From the NCBI GenBank assembly GCA_026390075.1, contig JAPLGP010000053.1:1-33429 (forward strand): 33,429 nt of DNA, given 5' to 3'. Origin of the DNA: Campylobacterales bacterium. Lineage in GTDB: Bacteria > Campylobacterota > Campylobacteria > Campylobacterales > Sulfurimonadaceae. Below are positions 2,419-31,151 of the stretch, piece after piece. Position numbers and translations under genes: made by a program. The notes under the pieces were generated by a model. That model made no database searches, was not told the origin of the DNA, and worked only from the letters and a program-made list of their open reading frames with translations. Position 1 is the stretch's first letter. Each line of letters opens with the position of its first letter.

Positions 2419-4447
2419 TTATTTTCAAAAATCTTTACGAAATAAGCTTCTTGTAACATTCATAGCAATTGGTTTTTTACCATTTCTTACACTTTTGATT
2501 TATACACTTTTTTTGAGTGAAACCAAAATTGTTAGCAAGATTGTCATTGAACAGTTTGATAGAACTCAGGCTGTAATGAAATTGCTCAATAACCATTTAG
2601 CTTCACTCACAAAAGAGGTAAATTTTTTAAGTTCACTTGATTTAATGGACGACTTTTTAGCAGAAGATATTGATAAAAGAATTTCGAGACTTTTAATACA
2701 AAAATCAAATGATTTTAACCTAAAAGTAACACTCATGGCCGTAAATATGGAAGCTAATATAATTGCTTCTTCAAGTATCAGTGCTACAGTAAATAAGTTT
2801 GATATAACAAAATTTACAAATACACAAGGAGAGTATATTGAGGGGAAAAAGTTATATATTTATTCGAGTGTATATGCCTCTTTTGATGAAAGTAAGAGAC
2901 TTGGCTTTTTAGTTTTAGAGTATGAATTAGATAATTTAGACATATATCTTACACATAAAGATAGTATGCATTCTTATATAATAAATTCAAAAAATAGCTT
3001 CACAATAGGTGAAAACTTACCTTTAAATCTTAATTTTTATCAAGATGAGAATAGTGTTATCAATGATGATCATGTTATTGTATATAAAAAGTTATCTTCA
3101 ATTATGAGTGATTGGTACATTGTTTATGCAGTGGATAAAAGTGTTGCATTGGCTTTTTTATATGATTTTATTCGTTTTATGCTCTATATATCTGTTGTTA
3201 TTTTTGTTCTCATTATATATGTTTCTTTTAAATATTCTAAGGGCATCGTCAAACCCATAGAAGAGCTAACAGCTATAACAAACGAGATAACAAGCACACA
3301 CAATTACTCTGTTGAGTTGCATGTGGATTCTAAAGATGAGATAGCAATACTTACGCACTCTTTTAATGAAATGCTTAAAACTACCTCTTTCGCCCTTGCA
3401 AAACTTGAGGAAGAAAATAAGTTGAGATTGAAAAGATTTATTCAACTCATTGAGGTTTTCAATACGATTATCCAAACAAAAAACGAAGATGAGTGTATGG
3501 ATGTCTCCATAGAGCAGATAAAAATACTTACGAATAAGAGTGATTTACAATTTAATAAAGAGAAGTCTTGGCATGTGCGAATGGAGTGTATTGACCTTTT
3601 CGTTAGTGATTTTGAAAAAAATGAAAAAGTTTACTTTGGCTCTATAGAATTAGGACTTGATAGTTTTGAGGATAAAAATGAAAAAGATTTTTATAACTCA
3701 ATTGCTTCGATGATTACTTTGCAACTTGATAGAATTAGACTTATCGAGCGAACAATGTCCGCTTCACACGCTAAGTCTGCATTTATATCCAATATGTCAC
3801 ATGAATTAAGAACACCATTAAACGCAATTATTGGTTTCACACAGTATATGATAGCCTATGAAGAGCTTAATGAAGACCAGCTAGATACTATGGGAAATAT
3901 AGAGTCATCAGCACACTATTTACTTGGTATGATAAATGAAATTTTAGATATTGCAAAAATTGAAGCTGGAAAAATGGAAGCACATATTGAAGATGTAAAT
4001 ATTTTAGAATTGGTTCAGAGTTCTCATTCTATGTTACAACCGTTGGCGAAAGATAAAAAGTTAGATTTTGATTTGATTATTGAAAACTTTGAAAATAAGT
4101 ATTATAAAACCGATCCTAAAATGTTCAAACAAATTGTTATAAATCTTCTTTCAAATGCTATTAAATTTACGCAAGAGGGGCATGTGGAATTGAAGCTGTA
4201 TAATAACGCTAACACGATTTTTGTGAGTGTAAAAGATAGCGGTATCGGTATTTCTAAAGAGGATATGAAGCAACTTTTTAATGACTTTACTCAGGTTGAA
4301 AATGTAATGCAAAAACAGCACAAAGGAACAGGATTGGGACTTTCATTGAGTAAAAAGATGGCGCATATTTTAGGTGGAGATGTTACACTCAGCAGTGAAG
4401 GTATTGGGCATGGAACAGCATCACTTTTTTCAATAAAAATAGTATAA
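2411..4447 (+). CDS. Membrane sensor histidine kinase (HAMP-HisKA-HATPase)
   Basis: The 678-residue protein has a transmembrane helix at about 12-32, a roughly 210-residue periplasmic sensor region of Cache-like length, and a second helix at about 248-270. A HAMP segment follows (VKPIEELTAITNEI to about 325), then a possible GAF-like region (about 335-440). The kinase core has the H box MSHELRTPLN with H464, N box INLLSNAIKFT, G1 DSGIGIS, F box LFNDFTQ and G2 GTGLGLS. There is no C-terminal receiver or HPt domain, so it is a classical kinase expected to phosphorylate D52 of the overlapping HD-GYP regulator. The porin-like and PstS-like genes upstream suggest the periplasmic domain may read a ligand delivered by them; that is inference. 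An exact GGCATGTGGAA motif lies in the catalytic-domain coding region at 4179. Confidence 0.93.
   Translation: MFDYFQKSLRNKLLVTFIAIGFLPFLTLLIYTLFLSETKIVSKIVIEQFDRTQAVMKLLNNHLASLTKEVNFLSSLDLMDDFLAEDIDKRISRLLIQKSNDFNLKVTLMAVNMEANIIASSSISATVNKFDITKFTNTQGEYIEGKKLYIYSSVYASFDESKRLGFLVLEYELDNLDIYLTHKDSMHSYIINSKNSFTIGENLPLNLNFYQDENSVINDDHVIVYKKLSSIMSDWYIVYAVDKSVALAFLYDFIRFMLYISVVIFVLIIYVSFKYSKGIVKPIEELTAITNEITSTHNYSVELHVDSKDEIAILTHSFNEMLKTTSFALAKLEEENKLRLKRFIQLIEVFNTIIQTKNEDECMDVSIEQIKILTNKSDLQFNKEKSWHVRMECIDLFVSDFEKNEKVYFGSIELGLDSFEDKNEKDFYNSIASMITLQLDRIRLIERTMSASHAKSAFISNMSHELRTPLNAIIGFTQYMIAYEELNEDQLDTMGNIESSAHYLLGMINEILDIAKIEAGKMEAHIEDVNILELVQSSHSMLQPLAKDKKLDFDLIIENFENKYYKTDPKMFKQIVINLLSNAIKFTQEGHVELKLYNNANTIFVSVKDSGIGISKEDMKQLFNDFTQVENVMQKQHKGTGLGLSLSKKMAHILGGDVTLSSEGIGHGTASLFSIKIV
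4179..4189 (+). repeat. GGCATGTGGAA dispersed motif, copy 1
   Basis: Exact 11-mer inside the histidine kinase gene, read in frame as G-H-V-E. It belongs to the family of 14 exact copies in this window. Confidence 0.85.
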
Positions 4448-4821: not shown

Positions 4822-4853
4822 TCTTGGCATGTGGGAACTTCCACATGCCAAGA
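4822..4853. terminator. Convergent hairpin built from an inverted pair of the dispersed motif
   Basis: A 13-bp stem (arms 4822-4834 and 4841-4853, loop GAACTT) lies between the 3' ends of ppnP (plus) and trxC (minus). The right arm holds an exact TTCCACATGCC (4839-4849); the left arm holds the same word with one changed base (4826-4836). Plus-strand sequence after it is T-rich (GTTACTTCTTTCTTTT). It can act as a terminator in both directions. Confidence 0.7.
4839..4849 (-). repeat. GGCATGTGGAA dispersed motif, copy 2
   Basis: Exact copy on the minus strand, forming one arm of the ppnP/trxC terminator hairpin. Confidence 0.85.
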
Positions 4854-4893: not shown

Positions 4894-5316
4894 TTAAATA
4901 AACTCGTAAACCAACCGATTTAGACTTGCTTCGTCCAAAGCCCCAGAAACTCTGTGAACCTCTTTTGCATCTTTAAATATTATAAGCGTTGGAATGCTTC
5001 TTATACCAAATCTTGAACCTAAATGCTGTTCTACTTCCGTATTAACTTTAGCAAAAAGAACTTTGAGTGGAAATTTTGTGGCACTTTTTTCGAAGTTTGG
5101 AGCCATCATCTTACATGGACCACACCAAGGTGCCCAGAAATCGATAATGACTGGCATATCACTGTTTACTACAATCTCATCAAAATTACCACCTGTAAGC
5201 TCGAGAGGCTTAGTATCAAGTAGTGATTTTTTACATTTCCCACAATTTGCCATTGTATAAGACTCCTTATACGGAATGTTGTTGACACTTAAACAGTGTG
5301 GACAAACGACACGCAT
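4894..5316 (-). CDS. trxC: Thioredoxin with N-terminal zinc ribbon (thioredoxin 2 type)
   Basis: Residues 1-30 carry two CxxC pairs (C5/C8 in CPHC and C25/C28 in CGKC), the zinc ribbon of thioredoxin 2. Residues 38-140 are a thioredoxin fold with the redox centre WCGPC (C65, C68) and the cis-proline turn RSIPTLI. The length, 140, is normal for TrxC. It reduces protein disulfides in the cytoplasm. It starts one base after fliW ends, at the end of the nrdA - unknown - fliW - trxC set; because class I ribonucleotide reductase needs a thioredoxin to re-reduce its cysteines, sharing a transcript with nrdA makes sense. Family is certain; dedication to NrdA is inferred from position. Confidence 0.92.
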   Translation of the reverse strand: MRVVCPHCLSVNNIPYKESYTMANCGKCKKSLLDTKPLELTGGNFDEIVVNSDMPVIIDFWAPWCGPCKMMAPNFEKSATKFPLKVLFAKVNTEVEQHLGSRFGIRSIPTLIIFKDAKEVHRVSGALDEASLNRLVYEFI

Positions 5317-10043: not shown

Positions 10044-10955
10044 TTGCCATTTGTTATAAAGAAGATGACGGCTCACAAAAAGCAAAAAGCTTTTCTCTAT
10101 TTGATTAAAGAGTTAGATTATACACAAAAAGAAGCGCAAAGATTAATTGCTAAAGGTCGTCTGTTTGTAGATGGTAAACCAATGACAAGAACTTCAGGAG
10201 AGGTAGAAGGTGAATTTGAATTTATTTACTTTAAACCAATCACTCGAGGTTTAGTTCCACATGCCGTATATGATGAATTTGTTGTATTTGATAAACCAAG
10301 TGGAGTTCTAATTCATCCTCAAAATAGAAATACAGACTATTCACTTATAGATGAGCTAAAGCATCAGTTTGGACGAGATGCAAACATTGCGCATAGAATT
10401 GATCAAGAGACAAGCGGACTTGTTTTGTGTGCTAGAAATAAGGTAAGTGAGAGAGAGATTAAAATGATGTTCCAAGAGCGAGATATGAAGAAAAAATATT
10501 TGGCTATGGTTCATGGGGAGTTTAAAGAAACGCTTTGTGTTGAAGCACCACTTTTAAGAGCAGAAGACGATAGTGCGATAGTGCGAATGGTTGTAAAAGT
10601 GCACGAGAGTGGAAAAGCTTCTAAGACAGATTTTGTGCCTCTAAAATATTTTCCACATGCCAATATGACCTTAGTAGAGTGTTCGCCTTATACAGGAAGA
10701 CAACATCAAATTAGAGTGCATTTGTTCCACGTGAAACATCCAATAGTTGGTGACCCGATTTATGGACAGAGTGAAGAAAATATTGTGAAATTCTTGGATA
10801 AAGAACTAGATGCAAAAGAGAGAATAAAAAATAGCGGTGCGAGTAGATTGTTGCTCCACGCAAATGAGTTAGAGTTTGAGCTTTATGAAAAAATTTATCA
10901 TATAAAAAGTAATATAGATTTTGAGAAAGTTTGTTTTGATAGTATTCAACTTTAA
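10044..10955 (+). CDS. RluA-family 23S rRNA/tRNA pseudouridine synthase
   Basis: The TTG start at 10044 is chosen because AAGGA lies seven bases upstream; an ATG at 10065 is the alternative. The N-terminus has an S4-type RNA-binding segment (YTQKEAQRLIAKGRLFVDGK, residues about 24-43). The catalytic motif HRIDQETSG contains the nucleophile D120, and RQHQIRVHLFHVKHPIVGD is the conserved C-terminal motif. It isomerises uridine to pseudouridine in rRNA or tRNA; which site (RluC, RluD or another) cannot be told. The codons for LFHVKH contain an exact parS consensus, and two exact GGCATGTGGAA motifs (as V-P-H-A and F-P-H-A) lie in the same gene. Confidence 0.9.
   Translation: MPFVIKKMTAHKKQKAFLYLIKELDYTQKEAQRLIAKGRLFVDGKPMTRTSGEVEGEFEFIYFKPITRGLVPHAVYDEFVVFDKPSGVLIHPQNRNTDYSLIDELKHQFGRDANIAHRIDQETSGLVLCARNKVSEREIKMMFQERDMKKKYLAMVHGEFKETLCVEAPLLRAEDDSAIVRMVVKVHESGKASKTDFVPLKYFPHANMTLVECSPYTGRQHQIRVHLFHVKHPIVGDPIYGQSEENIVKFLDKELDAKERIKNSGASRLLLHANELEFELYEKIYHIKSNIDFEKVCFDSIQL
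10255..10265 (-). repeat. GGCATGTGGAA dispersed motif, copy 3
   Basis: Exact copy in the RluA-type gene, read on the gene strand as V-P-H-A. Confidence 0.85.
10651..10661 (-). repeat. GGCATGTGGAA dispersed motif, copy 4
   Basis: Exact copy in the RluA-type gene, read as F-P-H-A, the same peptide made by the copy at 23582 in recJ. Confidence 0.85.
10723..10738. other. parS: parS centromere-like site, exact consensus
   Basis: TGTTCCACGTGAAACA matches the bacterial parS consensus TGTTNCACGTGAAACA at every fixed position. It lies inside the RluA-type gene. ParB binds such sites to organise and segregate the origin region. A hand estimate at about 34% GC gives fewer than one chance in a thousand of seeing it anywhere in a window this size. 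Confidence 0.75.
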
Positions 10956-12523: not shown

Positions 12524-13062
12524 CTTGAAGTGAGTTCCTTTATTCTAGTTTCCACATGCCGTGCTAAAAGCTTTTTTGCTTTTTCATGATTTTTTAAAAA
12601 GTCACTGTGAGCATCTTTGTTAGTATAGTTTGTTATACAAAAAACTCCACCAGCTGGGATATCAAACTCCTGTGCAATTCTTAAAACTGCAAAAAACTCC
12701 ATGTTTTCTATCTCTACTCCAAGATTTAAAAACTTTTTTGTAAGTTCTTGGCATGTGGAAATATAGTTTGATGAGTTTACGATTATCTCTTTTTTGTTAG
12801 TTGTGTTAGTAGAAATAACATTATCTAAAGGTGTATAAGCATCTCCGCTTAAAAAACCTAACTCAATATTTGAAGCTGTTTTTGACTCAACTATGTCAAA
12901 AATATTGTGATTTCCATAACTTCCTGCACTTCCAACAAAGAGTAAAAATTCAGGTTTATCAAAGAGACAAAGTCGTGTTAAATTCATTGCAGTTTCAATA
13001 AGCCCTACTCCCATAGGTGTAGCAAAATCAAATGTTTCATTATTTCCAGCGCAGATAATCAT
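12520..13062 (-). CDS. Purine nucleoside phosphorylase / nucleosidase superfamily protein
   Basis: The 180-residue protein fits the PNP/UDP-phosphorylase (PNP_UDP_1) superfamily but is short. Visible motifs are [20 protein letters not shown] at the N-terminus, [12 protein letters not shown], and [21 protein letters not shown], which matches the active-site VxxMEaaA segment of MTA/SAH nucleosidases. It probably splits a nucleoside such as methylthioadenosine, S-adenosylhomocysteine or a purine nucleoside; which one is not clear. It overlaps hisF and rlmN by four bases each. It holds two exact dispersed motifs, one read as R-H-V-E and one as S-T-C-Q-E-L. The SAM-using RlmN next door would fit a nucleosidase role. 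Confidence 0.78.
12550..12560 (-). repeat. GGCATGTGGAA dispersed motif, copy 5
   Basis: Exact copy near the 3' end of the nucleoside phosphorylase-like gene, read in frame as R-H-V-E. It shares TTCCACATGCCGTGC with the copy at 20432. Confidence 0.85.
12750..12760 (+). repeat. GGCATGTGGAA dispersed motif, copy 6
   Basis: Exact copy in the nucleoside phosphorylase-like gene, part of a 19-base identity (AGTTCTTGGCATGTGGAAA, 12743-12761) with the unrelated lipoprotein gene at 20897-20915. Confidence 0.85.
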
Positions 13063-16738: not shown

Positions 16739-16758
16739 GAGAAATTAGGGGAAATATT

Positions 16759-17340
16759 TTGAGTAAAGAAGATACGAATTTTGAAAATGCAGTAAAAACT
16801 ATGATGCTTCATGTCGGGGAAAATCCTGAGCGTGAAGGTCTGGTAAATACGCCTTCAAGAGTTAGAAAAGCGTATGAGTTTATTTATGGCGGATACAAAG
16901 AAAACCCGAGAGAAATTTTAGAAAAAGCTCTTTTTACAAGTTCTAATGATGAAATGGTTCTTATAAAAGATATAGAATTTTACTCTACATGTGAGCATCA
17001 TCTTCTGCCTATCATTGGTCGTGTTCATGTTGCTTATATTCCAGATGGAAAAGTTGTTGGTCTTTCAAAAATTCCCCGTGTTGTGAATGTTTTTGCGCGT
17101 CGTATGCAGATTCAAGAACAACTTACCGAGCAGATTGCAGACGCGATTATGGATATTATAGCTCCAAAAGGTGTTGCAGTTGTTATTGCAGCGCGTCACA
17201 TGTGTATGGAGATGAGAGGCGTTGAGAAGATAAACTCAACGACTACCTCATCTGCTCTTCGTGGTCTGTTTAAAAAAGACCAAAAAACAAGAAGTGAATT
17301 TTTCTCTCTTATTAATTCACCTACTGGCACGCGCTACTAA
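16759..17340 (+). CDS. folE: GTP cyclohydrolase I
   Basis: The start is TTG at 16759, with AGGGGAAA close upstream, giving 193 residues. Zinc ligands C78, H81 and C149 have the same spacing as in the E. coli enzyme (CEHHLLP, then ARHMCM), and the signature [20 protein letters not shown] is complete. It converts GTP to dihydroneopterin triphosphate, the first step to folate, and acts as a cytoplasmic decamer. It is 20 bases after rnj and 19 before fliI on the same strand, in an operon of mixed functions. Confidence 0.96.
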
Positions 17341-17353
17341 CTCTTAAGTAGAT

Positions 17354-17364
17354 TTCCACATGCC
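17354..17364 (-). repeat. GGCATGTGGAA dispersed motif, copy 7, over the fliI start codon
   Basis: Exact TTCCACATGCC in which the ATG is the fliI initiation codon, so the motif occupies the translation start region. Confidence 0.85.
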
Positions 17365-18676
17365 ATTCAAATCACTCAAAGATAAAATTTCTTCTAAAAA
17401 TTATTCAGTAGCATTTGGTGAAGTAGTTAAAATAAATGCTACTATAATCACAGCAACAGGATTAAAAGTAAGTATTAGTGATATGGTAAAAATCGTTTCT
17501 ACCGACACTGCTCAAGAAACTTTTGGAATGGTAACAGAGATAGATGGTTCTACATTTTTTATAACACCATTCAGCTTTGTAGAGGGATTTTGTTCAGGAG
17601 ACAGAGTCTTTTTGGATCAAACTGGGATGAATATTCCTGTTGGAGCATCTCTACTTGGACGCGTAGTTGACCCATTTATGAGACCGATTGATGGAAAAGG
17701 TGCTTTAACTGAAACAACATTATCTCCAATCATAAAAGCTCCTATTGCTGCTATGAAAAGAGGAATGATAGATGAAGTTTTTAGTGTTGGGGTTAAAAGT
17801 ATTGATGGTCTTTTGACATGTGGGAAAGGTCAAAAGTTAGGTATATTTGCTGGAAGTGGTGTTGGAAAATCTACACTTATGGGGATGATTGTAAGAGGTG
17901 CAGATGCTCCGATTAAAGTTGTTGCACTTATCGGAGAGCGTGGAAGAGAAGTTCCTGAGTTTATAGAAAAAAATTTAGGTGGCAATTTAGAAAATACAGT
18001 CATTGTAGTGGCAACTTCAGATGATTCGCCTCTAATGAGAAAGTATGGAGCTTTTGCTGCTATGAGTGTTGCAGAGTATTTTAAAGATCAAGGAATAGAT
18101 GTTCTTTTTATCATGGACTCTGTGACAAGATTTGCTATGGCTCAGCGTGAAATTGGACTTGCTCTTGGTGAACCGCCTACCTCAAAAGGATACCCACCCT
18201 CTTCTTTAACGCTTCTTCCACAGCTTATGGAGCGAGCTGGAAAAGAGGATGGAAAAGGTTCGATTACAGCCTTTTTTACTGTTTTGATTGAGGGCGATGA
18301 TATGAGCGACCCAATCGCTGACCAATCTCGTTCTATTTTAGATGGGCATATTGTCCTCTCACGCGAACTTACAGACTTTGGCATCTATCCACCTATCCAT
18401 ATACTTAACTCAGCTTCTAGGGTAATGAATGACATTATTACGAAGGATCATTTGAAAGCAGTTTTAAAGTTTAGAAGATTATATACACTTTTAAAAGAAA
18501 ATGAAGTTCTTATCCGCATTGGAGCCTATACCAAAGGAAGCGATAAAGAACTTGATGAAGCTATTGATAAAAAAGAGATAATGCAAGAATTTTTATCTCA
18601 AAATTCACAAGTTCAAAATGAATTTAATGATACTGTTGCTACTTTAATGACTATTATGGGTATTAAGAATTCATAA
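17360..18676 (+). CDS. fliI: Flagellar type III export ATPase FliI
   Basis: The 438-residue protein has Walker A at residues 164-172 (AGSGVGKST), Walker B ending in D253 (DVLFIMD), the ALGEPPTSKGYPPS segment and the LSRELTDFGIYPPIHIL region typical of flagellar F1-like ATPases. It powers unfolding and delivery of flagellar export substrates as a hexamer at the membrane base. No strong ribosome site is visible: the ATG lies inside an exact dispersed motif and only AAGTAGA is upstream, so translation may rely on coupling to folE. Its end overlaps the convergent WD40 gene by 14 bases. Confidence 0.95.
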   Translation: MPFKSLKDKISSKNYSVAFGEVVKINATIITATGLKVSISDMVKIVSTDTAQETFGMVTEIDGSTFFITPFSFVEGFCSGDRVFLDQTGMNIPVGASLLGRVVDPFMRPIDGKGALTETTLSPIIKAPIAAMKRGMIDEVFSVGVKSIDGLLTCGKGQKLGIFAGSGVGKSTLMGMIVRGADAPIKVVALIGERGREVPEFIEKNLGGNLENTVIVVATSDDSPLMRKYGAFAAMSVAEYFKDQGIDVLFIMDSVTRFAMAQREIGLALGEPPTSKGYPPSSLTLLPQLMERAGKEDGKGSITAFFTVLIEGDDMSDPIADQSRSILDGHIVLSRELTDFGIYPPIHILNSASRVMNDIITKDHLKAVLKFRRLYTLLKENEVLIRIGAYTKGSDKELDEAIDKKEIMQEFLSQNSQVQNEFNDTVATLMTIMGIKNS

Positions 18677-20795
18677 TCATTTCAAAATTTATCCAGTTAT
18701 CTCTGGTTTGTCTGCTGTTGTGGGATACTGCTAACCTTGTATTTGTCACAGTTTCATACAACCTTATGAGAGAGTTTATTTCCATATCAGTTCCAAATAT
18801 GTCTATGTATGAGTAAATAATATTTTCTGCATTCTTAAAACTCTTGTTAGTCATAAGTATTTTTATTTTTGTATGAAAGCTAACTCTTAAAAGGTCACCT
18901 ATCTTATCTCTTCTGGTACTTAGATTTATTAGACCACCTAGAGTTACTTTGATATCTTTGATATTGCCTCTGAGTGCATACTCTTCGCATGTATGAATAA
19001 GTTCAGACCATTTTTTTTCTAGTGACGCGCCAAGTTTTGTAAAGTTCAAGCTAGTGCATTCATCTAAAATTTCATAACATGCAATTAAATTTCCATCTTT
19101 ATAAGCTTTGAGAAGTTTTTGCATATTTTGATTTTCTTGAGTAAGTTTTGCAATCTCAATAGCTACGGATGGAAGTCCTTCAAATTTTAGAATATTCTCT
19201 TTTGCTGCGTTAGTATTGCCCATTTTAATAAAATCTTTTATTTCTAATAAGCCGTATTCTATGTCATTTTCAAGTAATTTATAGGTTGGAATTTTTGTAA
19301 AAGCTTCATTTGTTTTAACTATTTCATTTACCTTTAGAAAATTTTTTGCTTCTACTGCTTTGAGAAACTCTATGAACTCTTTGTTGTGATTGAGAATGAG
19401 CCGTATCATGGGTCGTTTAGAAAGAATTGTTACATATTCTAAGAGAAGTGATTTTGCTATCTCATCTCTTCCTAAGAGTATCTGTTTTTGAGCATTTATA
19501 AAAGTTTCCCTCCATAACTCTTCCATTTTTTTATACTGAGATGTATTCTCAAGTGCTGGAAACTTGGCACATAAAGCATAGGCAAGTGCATATTTTTTTT
19601 CTAAAAAGAGTTCTTGTAATCTAGAATAATGCTCAAAAGATTTAAAAAGCAGTGCAATTTCATCTTTTTTTGAGGGTATATTTTTAAATATATCAAGGAG
19701 TTTAAGGGCTTCTGTCTTTTGTTGATTTACTAAAAGTTCAACTGCTTGTTCATATATTTTGTTATAGCTATCTTGAAGTTTTTTGTACTCAAGTGATTCT
19801 TTTATCATACAATCTTTTTCGCATAAATGAAAAGCAGCATCTAATCTATTGTGTAGGATGAATGATTTTAGCTTTGCAACACTTGGCAATTGAACATGAT
19901 ATAGAGTCAAATTATCTACAACAGCTATGAGTGTAGTATTGTCTGTAAGTGCTATTTTGGTAACTTTACCTTTAAATTCTAAGTATTTATGATGCATAAT
20001 CTTATTGTTTTTTATGTCATATAAAGATACATAATTTGCATCGCCACTTATCATTATATAATTTGGGTTGGGCATTCGTATTATTGTAGATATTGTTTTA
20101 AATCCTGTATTTATCTGCTTAGATTTTTTTTCATCTTCAAGATAGTTTATAAATAGAGTTCCATCTGCATTGCCACTTATTAGGGTAGTTTCATCTAAAA
20201 AGCATAGGGTGTTCACACGAATAAAACTATTTGAAAAAGAAGTTTTACCCAGTCTGGAGTGTATGTCTATAATAAAAATATCACCATTATGACTCGCACA
20301 CGCTAACCTGTTTTTGTAAAATGCAATTGCACTGATAAAACTTTGTGTTAGGTCATCTTTTTGATTAAATTTTTTAAATGAACAGAGTCTTCCAAGCAAA
20401 GATGAACCATCATACCTATATAAAAGTACTCTTCCACATGCCGTGCCTGCAATAATATACTTTGATTCTAAATCAAAAGATACTATCTCTATATTTTCAT
20501 TATCACAGTTTATAATCTTGATGACTATGCTACTTGCTATGTGAATTATATAAATCTGTGTTTTAACACAAAATGCTAAAAATGCACCATTTGGGCTGAA
20601 AGAAGTTGAAAATGCGTTTGTGTGAAATAGCTCATGTACATTATTGATGCTGAGTTTGATAGAACAATCTTCAGAAGAAATAATTTTGATGCCATGATTT
20701 TTTGTGCTGTAAGCTACTAAATTATTATCTAAAATCTTTAGTTCTGTAACATCAGAATGATTATTTTGGCACTCCGATATTTTAGGCATGGGCAT
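18663..20795 (-). CDS. WD40-type propeller plus helical-repeat protein
   Basis: A 710-residue cytoplasmic protein with no signal or membrane span. Residues 1 to about 320 show WD40-like blades (SFSPNGAFLAFCVKTQIYII; IAGTACGRVLLYRYDGSSL; LISGNADGTLFINYLED), although full WD dipeptides are rare. Residues about 330-700 are helical and rich in K, E and L, resembling degenerate TPR-type repeats. Such proteins are scaffolds; no function can be named. The first ATG at 20795 lies inside the upstream lipoprotein gene (14-base overlap); a second ATG at 20789 has GGA at better spacing. It is convergent with fliI. An exact dispersed motif encodes T-A-C-G-R-V. Confidence 0.8.
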   Translation of the reverse strand: MPMPKISECQNNHSDVTELKILDNNLVAYSTKNHGIKIISSEDCSIKLSINNVHELFHTNAFSTSFSPNGAFLAFCVKTQIYIIHIASSIVIKIINCDNENIEIVSFDLESKYIIAGTACGRVLLYRYDGSSLLGRLCSFKKFNQKDDLTQSFISAIAFYKNRLACASHNGDIFIIDIHSRLGKTSFSNSFIRVNTLCFLDETTLISGNADGTLFINYLEDEKKSKQINTGFKTISTIIRMPNPNYIMISGDANYVSLYDIKNNKIMHHKYLEFKGKVTKIALTDNTTLIAVVDNLTLYHVQLPSVAKLKSFILHNRLDAAFHLCEKDCMIKESLEYKKLQDSYNKIYEQAVELLVNQQKTEALKLLDIFKNIPSKKDEIALLFKSFEHYSRLQELFLEKKYALAYALCAKFPALENTSQYKKMEELWRETFINAQKQILLGRDEIAKSLLLEYVTILSKRPMIRLILNHNKEFIEFLKAVEAKNFLKVNEIVKTNEAFTKIPTYKLLENDIEYGLLEIKDFIKMGNTNAAKENILKFEGLPSVAIEIAKLTQENQNMQKLLKAYKDGNLIACYEILDECTSLNFTKLGASLEKKWSELIHTCEEYALRGNIKDIKVTLGGLINLSTRRDKIGDLLRVSFHTKIKILMTNKSFKNAENIIYSYIDIFGTDMEINSLIRLYETVTNTRLAVSHNSRQTRDNWINFEMIMNS
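20432..20442 (-). repeat. GGCATGTGGAA dispersed motif, copy 8
   Basis: Exact copy in the WD40-type gene, read as T-A-C-G. Confidence 0.85.
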
Positions 20796-21288
20796 TCCAA
20801 AGTATCTCTTTTAAAGACCATTTTTGGTTTAAATCTTTTTTAAAGTGTAATTCTATATTGTTAAATTCTTTTTGTTTGCAGATTAGGGTTTCTTGGAGTT
20901 CTTGGCATGTGGAAAAGGCATTTTTATTGTATGAATCTCCAATTTTCATATTAAAGGGATTTTCTATATAATCACTTGTTATGGATATATTTTTTATATA
21001 TTGTTGTGCATTCTTACCTGCAATTGTTGGGGTGATTATCATTACTTCACGAGAATTATAAAGAACTCTCATTACACTCACTGATACCCCATTTTCCCGA
21101 GCAGTAAACATTTCTACATTGTAGCTTAAAAGTTTTGAACTTATTTCACTCTGCGAAAAAAGTGTTTTTGAATCTAAGGAGTTAACACCAACGTTTGATA
21201 AGACAAGTACAATTGAAGGCTTTTTGTTTTCTTGTGAACACCCAATAAAAAATAAAAGCATAAGTAAATGAGTTAGGATTAATTTCAT
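20782..21288 (-). CDS. Putative lipoprotein upstream of the WD40-type gene
   Basis: The 168-residue protein has a lipoprotein signal: hydrophobic residues 3-15 and a lipobox FIGC with C17 as the lipidated residue. The mature part starts SQENKKPS, then IVLVLSNVGVNSLDSKTLFS, and ends in WSLKEILWNAHA. I do not recognise the family. It overlaps the WD40-type gene by 14 bases, so the pair is co-translated: a membrane-anchored partner and a large cytoplasmic scaffold. An exact dispersed motif encodes S-T-C-Q-E-L, the same peptide found in the unrelated protein at 12520. Confidence 0.75.
   Translation of the reverse strand: MKLILTHLLMLLFFIGCSQENKKPSIVLVLSNVGVNSLDSKTLFSQSEISSKLLSYNVEMFTARENGVSVSVMRVLYNSREVMIITPTIAGKNAQQYIKNISITSDYIENPFNMKIGDSYNKNAFSTCQELQETLICKQKEFNNIELHFKKDLNQKWSLKEILWNAHA
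20904..20914 (+). repeat. GGCATGTGGAA dispersed motif, copy 9
   Basis: Exact copy in the lipoprotein gene, within the 19-base identity to 12743-12761. Confidence 0.85.
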
Positions 21289-21352
21289 GATTAATTATAA
21301 ATAAAATATATGGTATTAAGGCTGAATTTTGAAGAAAATAGAAATTTAAAAG

Positions 21353-21372
21353 AGGTTAAACCACTTTAACCT
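21353..21372 (-). terminator. Terminator after the cytochrome-like gene
   Basis: A perfect eight-bp stem (AGGTTAAA/TTTAACCT, loop of four) followed on the minus strand by CTTTTAAATTTC, a U-rich stretch. Confidence 0.65.
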
Positions 21373-21406
21373 GTGCATAAAGCAAGGTCAAGTGATTTAA
21401 AATTAT

Positions 21407-21730
21407 TTAGCAAGAAGGAACATTTCCGCTGTCACTACCGAATTCGTGAAAGAAATCGTAATAATCTTCTAAATACTCATCTTTAACAGCATCGTCTTTT
21501 AGACCTGCACAAACAGTCTTAAGTTCAGTAGCTATTTTACCACCCTCTTTAAGTTTTTTCCATTCATCTTGAGTGTGTTTGCCAGCCATTGCCGCACCAG
21601 TCATATTACAAGCAGCTTTTAACTTTTTAAGATAAAGCTTCTGACCTTTAGCAGGATCTGCACTTAGCGATACAGCACCCATTCCTAAAATAATTGTTGC
21701 ACTCAGTGCGATTTTCGCGATTTTATTCAT
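21407..21730 (-). CDS. Exported cytochrome c-like protein lacking a haem motif
   Basis: The 107-residue protein has a clear Sec signal (cleavage near SLSA-DP, residue 24). The mature start DPAKGQKLYLKKLKAACN looks like a class I cytochrome c (xxGxxLYxxxCxxCH), but the CXXCH is absent: only C41 remains, in AACNMTG. Three cysteines (C41, C74, C107) are spaced exactly 33 residues apart, the last being the final residue. It is therefore unlikely to bind haem covalently and may use thiols instead. It follows the flavoprotein gene on the same strand, separated by 124 bases with its own hairpin, so a role in periplasmic sulfur chemistry is possible. GGAG precedes the ATG. Confidence 0.75.
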   Translation of the reverse strand: MNKIAKIALSATIILGMGAVSLSADPAKGQKLYLKKLKAACNMTGAAMAGKHTQDEWKKLKEGGKIATELKTVCAGLKDDAVKDEYLEDYYDFFHEFGSDSGNVPSC

Positions 21731-21833
21731 TCTATCTCCTTGTAAGTTTGTAAAAGTCTAACTAAGTAATAATAAAAACAGAATTTATCGTAAAACTAAT
21801 TTATATCATTAACAAAAAATGTAACTTTTCGAC

Positions 21834-21853
21834 TAATCCTCAAAAGAGGATTA
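21834..21853 (-). terminator. Stem-loop after the flavoprotein gene
   Basis: An eight-bp stem (TAATCCTC/GAGGATTA, AAAA loop on the plus strand) lies directly after the flavoprotein stop. The U-run on the minus strand comes about 14 bases later, so termination may be partial and allow read-through into the cytochrome-like gene. Confidence 0.5.
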
Positions 21854-21854
21854 A

Positions 21855-23327
21855 CTATGCTTTACCAGACAACATTCCGTACATAGTCATTGGCTTAAGT
21901 GCGTAAACTTTCAACAACCACCATATCCATCTCTCTTTTGTTGGGTCAAGTGGGAATGATGGAGTTGGTTTTGCAGTCCAATCAAATTCAGCAAGCATAA
22001 CTGTGCCAATACCTGTAATAAGAGGACAAACAGTATATCCACCATAAGCAGCTGGTAATTCAGTTTTACCTTCCATAGAAGCTATCATATTTTGAACTAA
22101 AACTTTGTATTGTTTACGAATTGAACCACCTGTTTTAGCCATAGGAATTGCAGCAATATCACCTATAGCCCATACATTTTTAAACTTAACATGCTGTAGG
22201 GTCTCTTTTGTAACAGGAACCCATCCTTTTTCTGAACCTATTGGAGATTTTCCAACAACATCAGAAGCTTTCATTGGCGGAGTTACATGGATAAAGTCAT
22301 ATTTCACTTCAACTTTTTCATGTGTAGTAATCATTTCATGTTCACCAGTATCTACATCAAGTTTACCCTTAACTTGAGCATGATGATCAAATATAGCCAC
22401 TTTATTTGCAGTATCTACTTCTACAAGGTTATGACTATAATTCCATTTGAAACCTCTTGTTTTAAACTGCTCAAGTATAGCATCGTGGTACTCAGGAACA
22501 GGAAACATTTTTCCACCATTTGGATAAAAAGTAAGTTCAACTTTATCAGCAACACCAGCTTCTTTAAGTCTTGCATGTGTCAGATACATAATTTTTTTAG
22601 GAGCACCACCACATTTGATTGGTGTATGAGGATCTGTAAAAACAGCTTTTAATTTTTCAGATCCTGTATGAGCTTTGGCTTTTTCGACTAATTCTTGAAT
22701 TCCAGTCCAAGTTGCTTCTGCACCATCTGCAAAATAGATAGAATGAAGACCATTCTTGCCAACTTGTGCTTTTGTTTCAGCATTGTTAGCACCTGATGAA
22801 GTAATAACGCCATTTAGACCTTTAATTCCAGCGAAGTTAAGCACTAAACCAGTAGCAACTACAAGTTGATCATAAGATATTTCTTCTTTTCCATCCACTG
22901 TAACTTTGTTATTTGCAGGATCAAAAGCTGTAACGCTTCCGTTGATGTGTTTTACACCTTTTGGTAAAAAGCTATCTCTTGCATAAACAATATCACTTTT
23001 TTTCCAAAGACCAGCAGCAACAAGTGTTTGACCTGGTTGGTATGAAGCAGAGTTAGGGTCTGGCTCAATAATTGTAATATCAGCGTTTGACAAAGTATTT
23101 TTAAGTAGCGCCGCAGTACTGATACCACCCAATCCACCACCAACGATAACTATCTTACCAGTTGCGTTTGAAGCAGCTAAAGTCGTAGTACCTGCTGTAG
23201 CACCTGCTAAAATAGACGCCGCCATTGGAGACACACTTAAATATTTTAATGCTTCACGACGAGACATAATCTCAGGATGCTTATCAACTTCGGCTAGAAT
23301 TTCTTCTAAAATTTTGTTTTTCTTCAT
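21855..23327 (-). CDS. Tat-exported sulfide:quinone oxidoreductase-like flavoprotein
   Basis: The 490-residue protein begins with a cytoplasmic leader, then a twin-arginine signal (SRREALKYL, residues 22-30, followed by a hydrophobic stretch to about 45), so a folded FAD protein is sent to the periplasm. FAD binding is seen in IVIVGGGLGGIS (59-70) and AIGDIAAIP (387-395). C239 (KCGGAP) and C434 (TVCPL) match the two redox cysteines of the SQR/flavocytochrome c sulfide dehydrogenase family. It probably oxidises sulfide and passes electrons to quinone or a cytochrome. A C-terminal amphipathic region (RWIWWLLKVYALKP) could dock to the membrane. Exact SQR type versus FCSD flavoprotein subunit is not settled. 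GAGGGAA is the ribosome site. Confidence 0.85.
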   Translation of the reverse strand: MKKNKILEEILAEVDKHPEIMSRREALKYLSVSPMAASILAGATAGTTTLAASNATGKIVIVGGGLGGISTAALLKNTLSNADITIIEPDPNSASYQPGQTLVAAGLWKKSDIVYARDSFLPKGVKHINGSVTAFDPANNKVTVDGKEEISYDQLVVATGLVLNFAGIKGLNGVITSSGANNAETKAQVGKNGLHSIYFADGAEATWTGIQELVEKAKAHTGSEKLKAVFTDPHTPIKCGGAPKKIMYLTHARLKEAGVADKVELTFYPNGGKMFPVPEYHDAILEQFKTRGFKWNYSHNLVEVDTANKVAIFDHHAQVKGKLDVDTGEHEMITTHEKVEVKYDFIHVTPPMKASDVVGKSPIGSEKGWVPVTKETLQHVKFKNVWAIGDIAAIPMAKTGGSIRKQYKVLVQNMIASMEGKTELPAAYGGYTVCPLITGIGTVMLAEFDWTAKPTPSFPLDPTKERWIWWLLKVYALKPMTMYGMLSGKA

Positions 23328-23440
23328 GCTTATTCCCTCTTTTATTAGATAAAGTTATCCAATGGTACAAGTTTAAGCCTTAATATAAGTTTTAAGTAGT
23401 AATTTTTTTTAAGAAGTGTATCTAAAGTAAACAAATCTTT

Positions 23441-25030
23441 TTAATATATTTTATTTATAAGAAGTTGAAGTGAAACTCTGTTATTAAATTCATTTTTTGT
23501 AATCGTATAGCTACATGTGAGCTTTTTATTTTTTGGCATTTCTAAAACGGTTCTAAATGCTATAAGTTCCAAAGTTTGTTTGGCATGTGGAAATTGTCTG
23601 ACTTCTATTTTTGAGTGTGATTTATCACTTCCCATAAGCTTTATACTTACAATCTCAGCGTCACGAAGTAAAAATTTAGGACGAAGATTTCCTTCTCCAA
23701 AGGGTTCAAAACTCTCAAGTAAGTTGAGAAGTTCAAAATCAATATCTTGTGCGGATAATATTCCCATGATAGCATCTTTTGGTAAAAAATCTTCAGGAGG
23801 TAATTTTGAAGCAGTTTCGTTTATAGCAATTCTAAACGCATCAATATTTTCTTCTTTAAGCCCTAGCCCCGCTGCCATTTTATGTCCGCCAAACTTAGTT
23901 AAGAAGGATTCATGAGTCTTGATAAGCTCATAAATACTTACTTCACCGATACTTCTTGCACTTCCTTTTGCGACACCGTTTTCACAACTTAAAACTATAG
24001 AGGGCTTCCCAAAATAATCAACTAATCTCGAAGCAACTATTCCAACAACGCCTTCATGCCAATTTTTACCAGCAACAACTATGACACTGCAAGAATCATC
24101 AACACTCTCTATCGCTTCTTTTGTACATTCTGCTTCCGTAGTTTTTCTTAAATCATTTAATGTATTGAGAAGTTCAAACTCTTTATATGCATCATTTGTT
24201 GAGGTAGCAGTAAAAAATTTTAGAGCGATACTTGCATCTTCGAGCCTTCCAGCAGAGTTTATTCTTGGTGCTATGGCAAATGCAATATCTTCTGAAGAGA
24301 TTACGGTCTTATTTAAAAAGTCTCGTATTATGATTGAAGATGCTCTTTTTGAAGTTGTTAAAACTTTTAAACCTTCTTGCACAAGCGTTCTATTGATGTC
24401 CACAAGAGGCATAATATCAGCGATAATTGCAATGCAGAGTATGTCTAAAAATTGTTTCATATCGACTGAGAGATTTAACTCTTTTTTCACAAGTCCTAAA
24501 AGTAGCCAAGCGACTTGAGCGCCGCATATCTCTTTAAAAGGATATTGGCATGTGGAAAGTTTAGGATTGACAATAGCATACGCCTCTGGAACTGTATTTA
24601 AAGGAGTATGATGGTCTGTAATGATTAAATCAATATTTCTCACTTTACATATTTTAGCAGCTTCAATTGCAGAGATTCCATTATCGACGGTGATTAAAAG
24701 GTCGGTATCAATTCTTTCTAATACATTGGGAGAAACTCCATAACCATCACTAAAACGGTTTGGTATGATTGCCTCTAATGGATAAGGAATTTGTCTAAAA
24801 AAATCAACCATTATTGCAGTTGAACTTACTCCATCCACATCATAATCACCAACTACGGTTATCTTTTTATTGTTTTTTATGGCATGTGCAATTTTTTGTG
24901 CAGCTTTTGTTGCATCGTTAAGAAGAGCTGGATTTGGGATTTGTGATAATTTTTTATCTTCTGTTGGAAATCTTTGTAAGAGTAGCTCAAAAAGAGCTGA
25001 CTTACTTAATTCTGGAATTGTACTGAACAA
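23441..25030 (-). CDS. recJ: Single-stranded-DNA exonuclease RecJ
   Basis: The 529-residue protein has the DHH-family motifs GDYDVDG (61-67), DNG at 116-118, DHH at 139-141, and the DHHA1 motif GGHKMAAGL. RecJ degrades single-stranded DNA 5' to 3' in recombination and mismatch or base repair. It follows pyrG by eight bases on the same strand. The gene holds two exact dispersed motifs (F-P-H-A at 23582 and S-T-C-Q at 24547) and a one-mismatch copy at 24881, the densest set in one gene here. Plus-strand open frames across it are shadows. Confidence 0.95.
   Translation of the reverse strand: MFSTIPELSKSALFELLLQRFPTEDKKLSQIPNPALLNDATKAAQKIAHAIKNNKKITVVGDYDVDGVSSTAIMVDFFRQIPYPLEAIIPNRFSDGYGVSPNVLERIDTDLLITVDNGISAIEAAKICKVRNIDLIITDHHTPLNTVPEAYAIVNPKLSTCQYPFKEICGAQVAWLLLGLVKKELNLSVDMKQFLDILCIAIIADIMPLVDINRTLVQEGLKVLTTSKRASSIIIRDFLNKTVISSEDIAFAIAPRINSAGRLEDASIALKFFTATSTNDAYKEFELLNTLNDLRKTTEAECTKEAIESVDDSCSVIVVAGKNWHEGVVGIVASRLVDYFGKPSIVLSCENGVAKGSARSIGEVSIYELIKTHESFLTKFGGHKMAAGLGLKEENIDAFRIAINETASKLPPEDFLPKDAIMGILSAQDIDFELLNLLESFEPFGEGNLRPKFLLRDAEIVSIKLMGSDKSHSKIEVRQFPHAKQTLELIAFRTVLEMPKNKKLTCSYTITKNEFNNRVSLQLLINKIY
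23582..23592 (+). repeat. GGCATGTGGAA dispersed motif, copy 10
   Basis: Exact copy in recJ, read on the gene strand as F-P-H-A. Confidence 0.85.
24547..24557 (+). repeat. GGCATGTGGAA dispersed motif, copy 11
   Basis: Exact copy in recJ, read on the gene strand as S-T-C-Q. Confidence 0.85.
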
Positions 25031-26753: not shown

Positions 26754-26764
26754 GGCATGTGGAA
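26754..26764 (+). repeat. GGCATGTGGAA dispersed motif, copy 12
   Basis: Exact copy in the divergent pyrG/antiporter intergenic region, outside any coding sequence. Confidence 0.85.
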
Positions 26765-26880: not shown

Positions 26881-28500
26881 ATGGAATACACACTTCTTTA
26901 TATAATTATGGCTTTGGGTATCTCGATAGTTATAAATATTTTTTTAAGGCGTTTAGGAATTTCCCAGATTATAGGCTACATTTTTACAGGTACGATTATC
27001 GCCTATGCTTTTGATTTAAGAGCTGTTAGTAATTCGCATATTTTAGGGCTTGTCGGTGAGTTTGGTATAGTTTTTTTGATGTTTACTATCGGGCTTGAAA
27101 TATCTTTAGCGAAGATGGGTACGATGAAAAAAGAGATATTTGGCAATGGACTTATGCAGGTTAGTTTAACTGCTGCAGTTGTTTATATTGTTAGTTATCA
27201 TCTTTATAATCTTGATGTAAAATCATCTTTAATAATCTCTCTGGCTTTTGCACTCTCCTCGACAGCAGTTGTTTTGAGCCACTTAAAAAGTTCAAAAGAA
27301 ATATATACTCCTTATGGACAAAAAGCAACTGGAATACTTATATTTCAAGATATTGCTGTTATCCCTATCTTGATTCTTATGACGGTACTAACCAATGAAG
27401 GAAATGAAAGTATTTATGTAATTTTGCAAGATACTTTTTTAAGTGCAATCTTTGTTTTTGGGCTTTTGTTTATTGCTGGAAAAAAACTTATGACATGGCT
27501 TTTACACTTTTCTTCTTCATCAAAACTGGATGAACTTTTTATGGGTTCAGTTTTATTTATAGTCGTTAGTGCATCACTTTTGGCACACTACATGGGTTTT
27601 AGTTATTCTTTAGGTGCTTTTGTAGCTGGGATGATTATCGCCGAGACAAAATACCACCATAAAGTTGAATCCGATATCGCACCTTTTAAAGATTTATTGC
27701 TTGGAACTTTTTTTGTGGTCGTTGGTATGAAAATAGATATAGCGCTTTTTATAGAAAATTTAGGATTAGTAATAGGACTATTTTTTATTGTATTGGCTCT
27801 AAAAACAGCAATTATGTATGTATTATTGAGGTTTACTTCTTCAAAAACAACTGCTCTAAAAACAGCTTTGGCACTTTCTCAGGTAGGTGAATTTTCTTTT
27901 GTTATTTTTGCCGTTGCTAGTGCTGGTGGTTTGCTTGATGATAGTTTGGCTCAATTTTTAGTACTTGTTGTAATTTTTTCTATGGTCGTTACCCCATTTT
28001 TTATCACTAGAATCAATGAAATAGTAGAATTTTTTATAAAAGAGAAAGATACGGTAACAGATATTTCATTTTTAACTACTAAAAAGAATCATGTTGTAGT
28101 GTGTGGATATAGTATCATAGGAAAATTTGTTGCGATGCAACTTGATGAACTTGATGCTCCGTATGTGATAATAGATAATAGCCATAAACATGTAGAAGAG
28201 GCTTTTTTAGATGGGAGAGAGGTTTATTTGGGAGATATGTCAAAACTCGCAATTTTAAATGCTTTGCATGTAGAAGATGCAGCGGCTGTTATAGTTACAC
28301 TTGATAATCTGGAGAAAAAACGGCTTATTTGTGAAACCGTTTTACAACATACAAAAAATGTAAATCTCATTGTAAAAGTTGTTTCTTTGGAAGAAAAAGA
28401 GGCATTAGCGGATTTAGATGTCACCGTAATTGTGGATGGAAAACTTGAAGTAGCGAGAGTTTTAGTCGAGAGAATGCTTACCTGCCAACTACAATATTAA
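26881..28500 (+). CDS. Cation:proton antiporter, KefB type with RCK_N domain
   Basis: The 539-residue protein has about 11-12 membrane helices (residues 1-380) of the CPA2/NhaP-like Na+/H+ exchanger fold, including the conserved FTIGLEISL and FALSSTAVVLSHL segments. A cytoplasmic RCK_N/TrkA-N domain starts near residue 402 (HVVVCGYSIIGKFVAMQL), with the later acidic position D in VIIDN expected for NAD binding. It probably exports potassium or sodium in exchange for protons under nucleotide control. It stands alone on the plus strand, divergent from pyrG. No KefF/KefG ancillary gene is adjacent. Confidence 0.88.
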   Translation: MEYTLLYIIMALGISIVINIFLRRLGISQIIGYIFTGTIIAYAFDLRAVSNSHILGLVGEFGIVFLMFTIGLEISLAKMGTMKKEIFGNGLMQVSLTAAVVYIVSYHLYNLDVKSSLIISLAFALSSTAVVLSHLKSSKEIYTPYGQKATGILIFQDIAVIPILILMTVLTNEGNESIYVILQDTFLSAIFVFGLLFIAGKKLMTWLLHFSSSSKLDELFMGSVLFIVVSASLLAHYMGFSYSLGAFVAGMIIAETKYHHKVESDIAPFKDLLLGTFFVVVGMKIDIALFIENLGLVIGLFFIVLALKTAIMYVLLRFTSSKTTALKTALALSQVGEFSFVIFAVASAGGLLDDSLAQFLVLVVIFSMVVTPFFITRINEIVEFFIKEKDTVTDISFLTTKKNHVVVCGYSIIGKFVAMQLDELDAPYVIIDNSHKHVEEAFLDGREVYLGDMSKLAILNALHVEDAAAVIVTLDNLEKKRLICETVLQHTKNVNLIVKVVSLEEKEALADLDVTVIVDGKLEVARVLVERMLTCQLQY

Positions 28501-29453: not shown

Positions 29454-30062
29454 TTAATTCCCTCTTGAGCCAGGTTTAATGGCCTCACTACCATCTTTAC
29501 ATAGTGGACAAGTATCAGGAGAATGTATTTCAAATGTAAAATCTTCCAATGCAAAAAATGGAATATCTTGAGGCAGTTTACAGTTTGCTTTTGTCACAAG
29601 ATTGCTATTTTCGCGTTTACAAAAACCACGGTTTGCTAATGCTGCAACACCGACAATTACACCGCCAAGACTTTTTACAACGCGTGCCGCTTCCATTGCA
29701 GAACCACCAGTTGTTATGATGTCTTCGCACATTAAAACTCTTTCGCCCTCTTTGATTTCAAATCCACGACGAATACTCATTTCGCCATTGACTCTCTCAG
29801 CAAAAATTGAACGACAATCAAGTGCTTGTGCTAGAGCAAAGCCAGCTATCAAACCACCAAGCGCAGGAGCGCAAACTGTATCAATTTTAAGTCCACTCGC
29901 TCTGATTTGCTTTGCAAGTTCATCCGCAAGTAGTTTCACAGTTTTAGGGTCTTCCAACACTTTTGCAGATTGAAGATAATACTGTGAATGATTTCCAGAG
30001 CTTAATTTAAAATGCCCTTCTAAAAGAGCATCTGCATCCATATATATTTCTTTTATATCCAT
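29454..30062 (-). CDS. pyrE: Orotate phosphoribosyltransferase
   Basis: The 202-residue protein has the PRPP-binding loop [17 protein letters not shown] and the N-terminal [16 protein letters not shown] motif of PyrE. It joins orotate and PRPP to give OMP in pyrimidine synthesis and acts as a dimer. The tail has a C-P-L-C pair ([20 protein letters not shown]) that may bind metal, as seen in some longer PyrE proteins. It follows frr, with a 58-base gap filled by a perfect inverted pair of the dispersed motif. Confidence 0.96.
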
Positions 30063-30084
30063 GATTTATTCCTTCGTTTCGCAT

Positions 30085-30095
30085 TTCCACATGCC
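30085..30095 (-). repeat. GGCATGTGGAA dispersed motif, copy 13
   Basis: Exact copy; left arm of the frr/pyrE hairpin. Confidence 0.85.
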
Positions 30096-30102
30096 AAAGC
30101 TT

Positions 30103-30113
30103 GGCATGTGGAA
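30103..30113 (+). repeat. GGCATGTGGAA dispersed motif, copy 14
   Basis: Exact copy; right arm of the frr/pyrE hairpin. Confidence 0.85.
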
Positions 30114-30120
30114 ATAAAAA

Positions 30121-30678
30121 TTATACTTTTAAAATTTCCACTTCTTTATCTTTGAGTATTTGTTCAATATTTACTGAATATTTATCTGTAGTTTTTTGAA
30201 TGGCTTCCTGCGCTGACTTTGATTCATCTTCAGTTATCAATTTATCTTTTTCAAGTTTTTTGATTTTATCGTTTGCATTTTTTCTATCATTTCTAAGAGA
30301 TATTTTAGCGTGTTCGCCCATCCCTTTCATCTGCTTTACAGACTCTTTTCTCTGTTCTACTGTCATGGCAGGAAAAAATAGTTTTATTTGTATGCCATCA
30401 TTGTTTGGATTTGCTCCTACATTTGCTTTAGAAATAGCACTATCTATCGCAGACAAAAGGTTTTTTTCCCAAGGATTAATTACGATTGTAGTTGCATCCG
30501 TTGCTATAATCGAACCTACTTGGTCAAGGGCAGTCATAGTGCCATAGTAGTCAACTTTGACATTGTCCAAAACTGAAGTAGTAATCTTACCAGTTCTAAG
30601 TGTTTTAAAATCTCTTAGCATGTGGTTTATGCTTAATTGCATTTTTGTTTCGCATTCGCTATATATTTCATTTAGCAT
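30121..30678 (-). CDS. frr: Ribosome recycling factor
   Basis: The 185-residue protein matches RRF over its whole length: FKTLRTGKITTSVLDNVKVDYYG in domain I, NDGIQIKLFFPAMTVEQRKE, and the C-terminal coiled helices ending KDKEVEILKV. With EF-G it splits the ribosome after termination. Length is standard. It is followed on the same strand by pyrE. GGAAAAAAAA-type purine-rich sequence precedes the ATG. Confidence 0.97.
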   Translation of the reverse strand: MLNEIYSECETKMQLSINHMLRDFKTLRTGKITTSVLDNVKVDYYGTMTALDQVGSIIATDATTIVINPWEKNLLSAIDSAISKANVGANPNNDGIQIKLFFPAMTVEQRKESVKQMKGMGEHAKISLRNDRKNANDKIKKLEKDKLITEDESKSAQEAIQKTTDKYSVNIEQILKDKEVEILKV

Positions 30679-30773: not shown

Positions 30774-30800
30774 AAATAGTTGCAAAAGATGCAACTATTT
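30774..30800 (-). terminator. Terminator overlapping the secG stop codon
   Basis: A ten-bp perfect stem (30774-30783 AAATAGTTGC with 30791-30800, loop of seven) contains the secG TAG stop. AU-rich sequence follows on the minus strand. A one-mismatch dispersed motif (30757-30767) lies just beyond. Confidence 0.6.
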
Positions 30801-31151
30801 TGTACTGTTTTGTTCAGTCGTAGTGTTTAATTCTTTGTTTGACATAGGTACTGTTTCCACCTTAGCAGCGGGTGCTACAATATTCGTTGTTTCTACAAGA
30901 GTATCGATGACAGAAGCATTTTTTGATTGAGAGTATAAGTAACCAAGAACAATTGTATTGATTACAAATAAAAATCCTATGATGAAAGTAGCTTTTGCCA
31001 AGAAACTAGCAGGACCTTTTGCTCCAAACACAGACTCATTTGAGCCACTATATGCACCAAGACCTATGCTTGAGCTTTTTTGTAATAGTACTGCTATCAC
31101 GATGATTACAACTAAAACAATTTGTACAATAAGTAAAAAACTAGTTGTCAT
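30795..31151 (-). CDS. secG: Preprotein translocase subunit SecG
   Basis: The 118-residue protein has two membrane helices (about 4-22 and 52-72) joined by the SecG loop VLLQKSSSIGLGAYSGSNES. It is an accessory subunit of the SecYEG channel in the inner membrane. The C-terminal tail, after residue 80, is soluble, rich in T, N and V, and longer than the E. coli tail. It stands alone, divergent from the methyltransferase gene, ahead of a terminator that overlaps its stop. Confidence 0.94.
   Translation of the reverse strand: MTTSFLLIVQIVLVVIIVIAVLLQKSSSIGLGAYSGSNESVFGAKGPASFLAKATFIIGFLFVINTIVLGYLYSQSKNASVIDTLVETTNIVAPAAKVETVPMSNKELNTTTEQNSTK

Follow-up and report, generated by a model that had tools for sequence, protein, structure and literature searches.

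RESULTS

A motif hairpin in the frr-pyrE gap

Why should the narrow gap between two cotranscribed-looking genes hold two head-to-head copies of the same 11-nt motif, TTCCACATGCC? The question arises in a 33,429-nt stretch of DNA from a Campylobacterales bacterium of the Sulfurimonadaceae (assembly GCA_026390075.1, contig JAPLGP010000053.1), which we refer to as the window. A first-pass annotation of these letters described the pair as a 15-bp hairpin between frr and pyrE, and the sequence is exactly so. The inverted repeat at 30083..30115, to which no strand is assigned, reads ATTTCCACATGCCAA-AGC-TTGGCATGTGGAAAT, with two perfect 15-bp arms (30083-30097 and 30101-30115) separated by a 3-nt loop. 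Each arm comprises the full TTCCACATGCC plus two bases per side (AT before and AA after), and a motif search places the copy of arm 1 at 30085..30095 on the plus strand and that of arm 2 at 30103..30113 on the minus strand. The predicted RNA fold of the hairpin with its flanks reaches -22.4 kcal/mol (z = -5.45), which 0 of 200 shuffles equaled, and an Rfam search returned no match of weight.

The hairpin occupies a 58-bp gap, separated by 5 nt from the frr stop codon and by about 20 nt from pyrE downstream. Transcript-upstream lies frr, which encodes the ribosome recycling factor (RRF; 30121..30678, minus strand; PF01765, E = 4.6e-56), and transcript-downstream lies pyrE, for orotate phosphoribosyltransferase (29454..30062, minus strand; PF00156, E = 7.7e-12); the latter identity combines the phosphoribosyltransferase family PF00156 with the frr neighborhood, a gene order that is kept in relatives. 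A probable secG-frr-pyrE run begins with secG (30795..31151, minus strand; PF03840, E = 2.3e-16), giving the minus-strand transcript order secG-frr-hairpin-pyrE. Past the frr stop codon, the transcript continues with 5 nt, the hairpin, GCGAAACGAAGGAAUAAAUC, and then the pyrE start.

The same annotation placed the hairpin inside a probable operon and without a U-run, which agrees with the operon-type gap, the same-strand genes, and the absence on both strands of a U-run behind the stem, where the transcript reads GGAAAUGCGAAACGAAGG. The orthologous frr-pyrE gaps of relatives likewise have no U-run after the hairpin. A classical intrinsic terminator is thus ruled out at this site, which makes read-through or mRNA stabilization the likelier role. 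With neither a U-run nor promoter space before pyrE, pyrE would depend on read-through, and most polymerases would have to pass the hairpin. The likeliest RNA effect of the pair would be that of a 3'-end hairpin protecting the frr part of the message or causing a mild step-down into pyrE, while both arms could serve as uptake tags at the same time.

The frr-pyrE pair in related genomes

The first-pass annotation tied its reading to conservation of the pair in relatives, and 6 of the 7 motif-rich genomes compared have kept it. The inverted pair is present between frr and pyrE in the window's own genome, G182, G194, G181, G206, and G175, with differing loops and predicted fold energies from -17.7 to -23.6 kcal/mol; the gap of G195 contains one variant copy, which is single. 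Motif-poor relatives lack the pair; their two genes stand 5 to 10 nt apart or have another insert between them, often hairpin bearing. Such inserts occur in the gaps of motif-poor L146, L150, L160, L162, and L167, several of them with CGCCAAAGGAAGTAATTCCTTTG...CTCTCGCACC. This gap therefore repeatedly collects intergenic hairpins.

The G175 pair carries TTGCACATGCC on both arms, the two strands of the stem having changed together. Such a double change hints at, but does not prove, selection on the stem, because none of the 18 variant pairs in the window's own genome is compensated. The same null result weakens the case for selection on base pairing as such, and outside frr-pyrE the arms seem to have been retained for being motif copies no less than for base pairing.

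Abundance of the motif in the window and the genome

The 2.40-Mb genome has 946 copies of the 11-mer TTCCACATGCC, nearly evenly divided between the strands (461 and 485), and the reversed-pattern control gave 0 copies. With one mismatch or none, the count rises to 1,643, against 10 for the control. A consensus from 212 copies in 433 kb reads AT-TTCCACATGCC-(A/G)(A/T)G, or AT-TTCCACATGCC-RWG, in which the core CCACATGC is almost invariant and the further flanks are barely conserved. Exact inverted pairs no more than 30 nt apart number 74 in both orientations, compared to about 6 expected from copy number: 40 have the frr-pyrE orientation and 34 the other, with about 2.9 expected for each. Their loops and spacing vary freely. 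Even spacing of the motif was considered and dropped, since its coefficient of variation (0.86) is indistinguishable from random placement (0.94 +/- 0.07). A second dispersed repeat in the same genome, GTCATTGCGAGGA...GAAGCAATC, is unrelated to TTCCACATGCC and often stands head to head; GTCATTGCG is found in 49 copies in 433 kb (e.g., L102:1970-4699 and L101:14107-14117), and all printed copies lie outside the window.

The window holds 14 copies of TTCCACATGCC where 0.01 is expected. Single copies inside genes lie at 4179..4189 (minus strand; ORF 2411-4447), 10255..10265 and 10651..10661 (both plus; ORF 10044-10955), 12550..12560 (plus) and 12750..12760 (minus; both in ORF 12520-13062), 20432..20442 (plus; ORF 18663-20795), 20904..20914 (minus; ORF 20782-21288), and 23582..23592 and 24547..24557 (both minus; ORF 23441-25030). 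A further copy at 17354..17364 (plus) lies at the start of ORF 17360-18676, and a single copy at 26754..26764 (minus) is intergenic, upstream of ORF 26881-28500. A second inverted pair, GGCATGTGGGA ac TTCCACATGCC, with one mismatch in one arm, spans 4826..4849 (no strand) between the convergent ORFs 4469-4780(+) and 4894-5316(-). Its orientation is opposite to that of the frr-pyrE pair, and a convergent gap is the typical placement genome-wide.

Placement of single and paired copies relative to genes

Of the 212 sampled copies, 123 (about 58%) are inside genes, as delimited by simple longest-ORF calls, and 110 of these 123 genic copies are single. Copies in inverted pairs make up 18 of 23 intergenic but only 6 of 58 genic copies (Fisher p = 6e-9) in the least biased sample, a table corrected for the fact that the stretches of this genome were partly chosen around pairs. 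The inverted pairs mostly stand 0 to 26 nt past stop codons; 32 of 67 are in convergent gaps and 1 is in a divergent gap. Tight codirectional gaps (<60 nt) seldom contain a pair (1 of 97 gaps in the least biased sample). The frr-pyrE pair thus departs from the usual placement, and this heightens its interest with regard to read-through. Viral contigs contain no motif pairs.

Conservation and decay of orthologous sites

Across six motif-rich genomes, 48 of 73 orthologous sites are identical, compared to 3 to 10% of neighboring 11-mers. Identity was found at 16 of 20 sites (80%) in G182, 10 of 18 in G194, 10 of 12 (83%) in G181, 3 of 8 in G175, 3 of 9 in G195, and all 6 in G206. Within the window, the copy at 23582..23592 is identical in G182, G194, G181, and G175, that at 24547..24557 in G182, G194, and G181, and those at 20904..20914 and 26754..26764 in G182; the copy at 17354..17364 is identical in G181 and G175, while G182 keeps TCCACATGCC.

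In the closest motif-poor relatives, the motif sites have decayed to the neutral level: 0 of 27 sites are identical in G209 (neighboring-11-mer baseline, 8.5%) and 4 of 24 in G254 (baseline, 14%). G209 retains none even though, compared across the window, it is the nearer to the window's genome (81% versus 78% identity). The window sites that align in G209 and G254 are all substituted or lost; the 20904..20914 site is mutated in both, and the 23582..23592 and 24547..24557 sites are mutated in these two as well as in G253 and G184.

Taxonomic distribution of the motif

Among 228 family genomes, enrichment is limited to a single genus, Sulfurimonas by record titles, and to only part of it. About 18 of the 228 genomes have 15 to 946 copies (946 in the window's own genome, then 907, 734, 662, 595, 573, 535, 318, 152, 130, 113, 104, 83, 77, 50, 41, 33, and 15), and most others have 0 to 7. 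The compared genomes, including the motif-rich ones, are mostly metagenome-assembled genomes (MAGs); six other motif-rich genomes, each at least 91% complete, contain 535 to 907 copies. When about 85,000 named genomes were scanned for motif pairs, the matches listed included records titled Sulfurimonas, Sulfuricurvum, or Helicobacteraceae, marine biofilm MAGs, and one contig labeled Bacillota. This contig (L012; JAJYNV010000332.1) is probably a misbinned Sulfurimonas contig, since the genome to which it is assigned has only 4 copies in 3.2 Mb. The sister species G036 has the variant TTCCACATGCTA, a candidate dialect read from this genome, with G199, G227, and G176 sampled thinly.

Motif-rich and motif-poor species intermingle in a two-gene tree. 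There, the trio G248, G209, and G254, all motif-poor, falls inside a fully supported clade (100/100) that also contains G000 and G182, the two genomes with the most copies, and the order inside this clade has support of 89/68. On this tree of only two genes and 1,161 columns, the pattern reads as a loss of the motif in the trio.

Competence genes and a candidate receptor

The window's genome encodes ComEC, a secretin, a T2SSE ATPase, GspG, and minor pseudopilins, and comEC is intact here and in most relatives. Two of the decayed relatives have a broken or undetected comEC: in G209, an 8.1-kb island interrupts the gene near residue 170, and no comEC was found in G254 (99% complete), which could reflect an assembly gap. 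G248 shows similar motif decay with comEC intact, and many motif-poor species also have comEC, so comEC alone cannot account for the motif pattern. Decay together with comEC damage is what the loss of a selecting process would leave, in a comparison of three genomes with one exception.

The G209 island (15231-23346, within L286, G209:C15:13001-26000) has a GC content of 29% and 0 copies of the 7-nt core. It encodes a TnsA-like endonuclease, a complete Kiwa defense pair (KwaA and KwaB), a GspH-like pilin, a radical-SAM protein, and a UDG-family protein.

Two candidate sources of a motif-specific pilin were rejected. The T2SS-like pseudopilin operon tracks species relatedness and is equally present in motif-rich and motif-poor genomes, and the pilin pair near priA/comEC is found in nearly all genomes compared. 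The GspH/FimT profile PF12019 has no match in any of 28 genomes, and solved structures gave only weak matches, mainly to the pilin N terminus. A GspH-like minor pilin on contig C48 of the window's genome (L254:226-900, minus strand) adjoins two large ORFs; a relative with 47% identity stands beside the same neighbors in G182, and another with 40% identity is encoded within the island that splits comEC of G209. We regard the C48 protein as a lead only toward a DNA-binding pilin.

DISCUSSION

A probable uptake-type sequence and its alternatives

We consider it quite probable, with good but not full confidence, that TTCCACATGCC serves one set of Sulfurimonas species as a DNA-uptake-type sequence and that its inverted pair doubles as a 3'-end hairpin. 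Our claim, drawn from genome comparison, is that the motif appears to work like a DNA uptake sequence (DUS), not that it is a proven DUS. The first-pass annotation suggested an uptake signal of the Neisseria and Haemophilus type; the copy counts, the orthologous conservation, and the decay favor the uptake part of that suggestion, but the host belongs to neither group and the motif is unrelated to theirs. A pilus-type competence apparatus, comprising a GspD/E/F/G-type secretin and pseudopilin machine with ComEC, would preferentially bind motif-bearing DNA, and tagged DNA would be taken up and recombined into the genome, spreading and preserving the motif. Between genes, pairs may be the form in which tags last best, as a hairpin behind a stop codon would do no harm or even be of use.

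The genome-wide spread and the conservation of orthologous sites would also fit a binding site for a chromosome maintenance or repair protein, comparable to Chi, KOPS, or matS, in place of an uptake signal. We consider this unlikely: the motif lacks strand polarity within stretches (chi2 = 11.0; 21 stretches), unlike Chi or KOPS, and it is patchy within one genus, is rapidly lost, and has a variant in a sister species. Such sites would also not be expected to form strong inverted pairs just past stop codons. This very arrangement could instead mean that the intergenic pairs are primarily terminators or 3'-end hairpins, built from a standard hairpin sequence that has been copied, with the genic singles as by-products. 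Most intergenic copies are indeed paired and close behind stop codons, with convergent gaps preferred and divergent ones avoided, and canonical hairpin-plus-U-run terminators are uncommon here, at about 5% of those convergent or wide gene ends that have no pair. However, genic copies are mostly single and conserved as such, only 11 of 94 pair tails have at least 5 T in 8 positions, and the two orientations are about equally frequent, which leaves this explanation, too, improbable.

Hairpin-forming intergenic pairs in both orientations are likewise a property of REP/BIME-like palindromes, which are moved by a RAYT-type transposase. Such elements are intergenic only and have a longer palindromic unit, whereas the unit here is an 11-mer with little conserved flank that lies mostly in coding sequence, is conserved as a single motif, and pairs with no fixed loop or spacing. 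A mobile origin of this kind is therefore very unlikely.

Such motifs are known only from the families Neisseriaceae and Pasteurellaceae (PMC12616744), and our search of open-license papers found no description of such a motif in Campylobacterota. The Sulfurimonas motif is probably a third, independent origin of sequence-specific uptake tags, in another phylum, with variants among species, repeated losses, visible decay (including two relatives with a broken or missing comEC), and tag pairs used as 3'-end hairpins. If true, a third lineage, in autotrophic sulfur oxidizers, would indicate that such tags evolve repeatedly. These genomes would then offer a natural experiment in which the motif is kept, varied, or decaying beside an intact or broken comEC, and it would bear on whether selection or drive maintains uptake sequences. 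If inverted pairs came to serve as gene-end hairpins independently, this would suggest that the places open to such tags are under a general constraint.

Comparison with known systems

The closest parallel is the neisserial DUS (GCCGTCTGAA; receptor, ComP), likewise a motif of 10 to 12 nt whose copies, found on both strands, run from hundreds to thousands, with an extended flank, strict conservation of core sites, and intergenic inverted pairs; its dialects among sister species may have a counterpart in the G036 variant (PMC2397512, PMC3630211, PMC1852404). TTCCACATGCC differs in being unrelated in sequence and found in another phylum, in mostly missing U-runs, and in having pairs without a preferred orientation (40 versus 34), whereas in Neisseria the +- order, the one that supplies A- and T-tails, greatly predominates (PMC1852404). 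The Pasteurellaceae USS (AAGTGCGGT) is also a short, overrepresented, and partly genic motif with inverted pairs at gene ends, but TTCCACATGCC is unrelated to it and lacks the long AT-rich flanking tracts. The paired share of intergenic copies here (18 of 23) exceeds the 34% of comparable sites that lie in terminators in Haemophilus influenzae, although the definitions differ (PMC1852404). The frr-pyrE hairpin resembles an intrinsic (Rho-independent) terminator in being a strong hairpin shortly after a stop codon; it departs from one in its operon-internal position and in lacking a U-run, as do the conserved pairs of relatives. Within the same phylum, Campylobacter jejuni combines a T2SS/T4P-type apparatus with ComEC and discriminates its own DNA at the uptake step (PMC8468864). 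There, methylation by CtsM of RAATTY, a short and common site, provides the tag (PMC8468864), whereas the tag in Sulfurimonas would be a long, hugely overrepresented motif.
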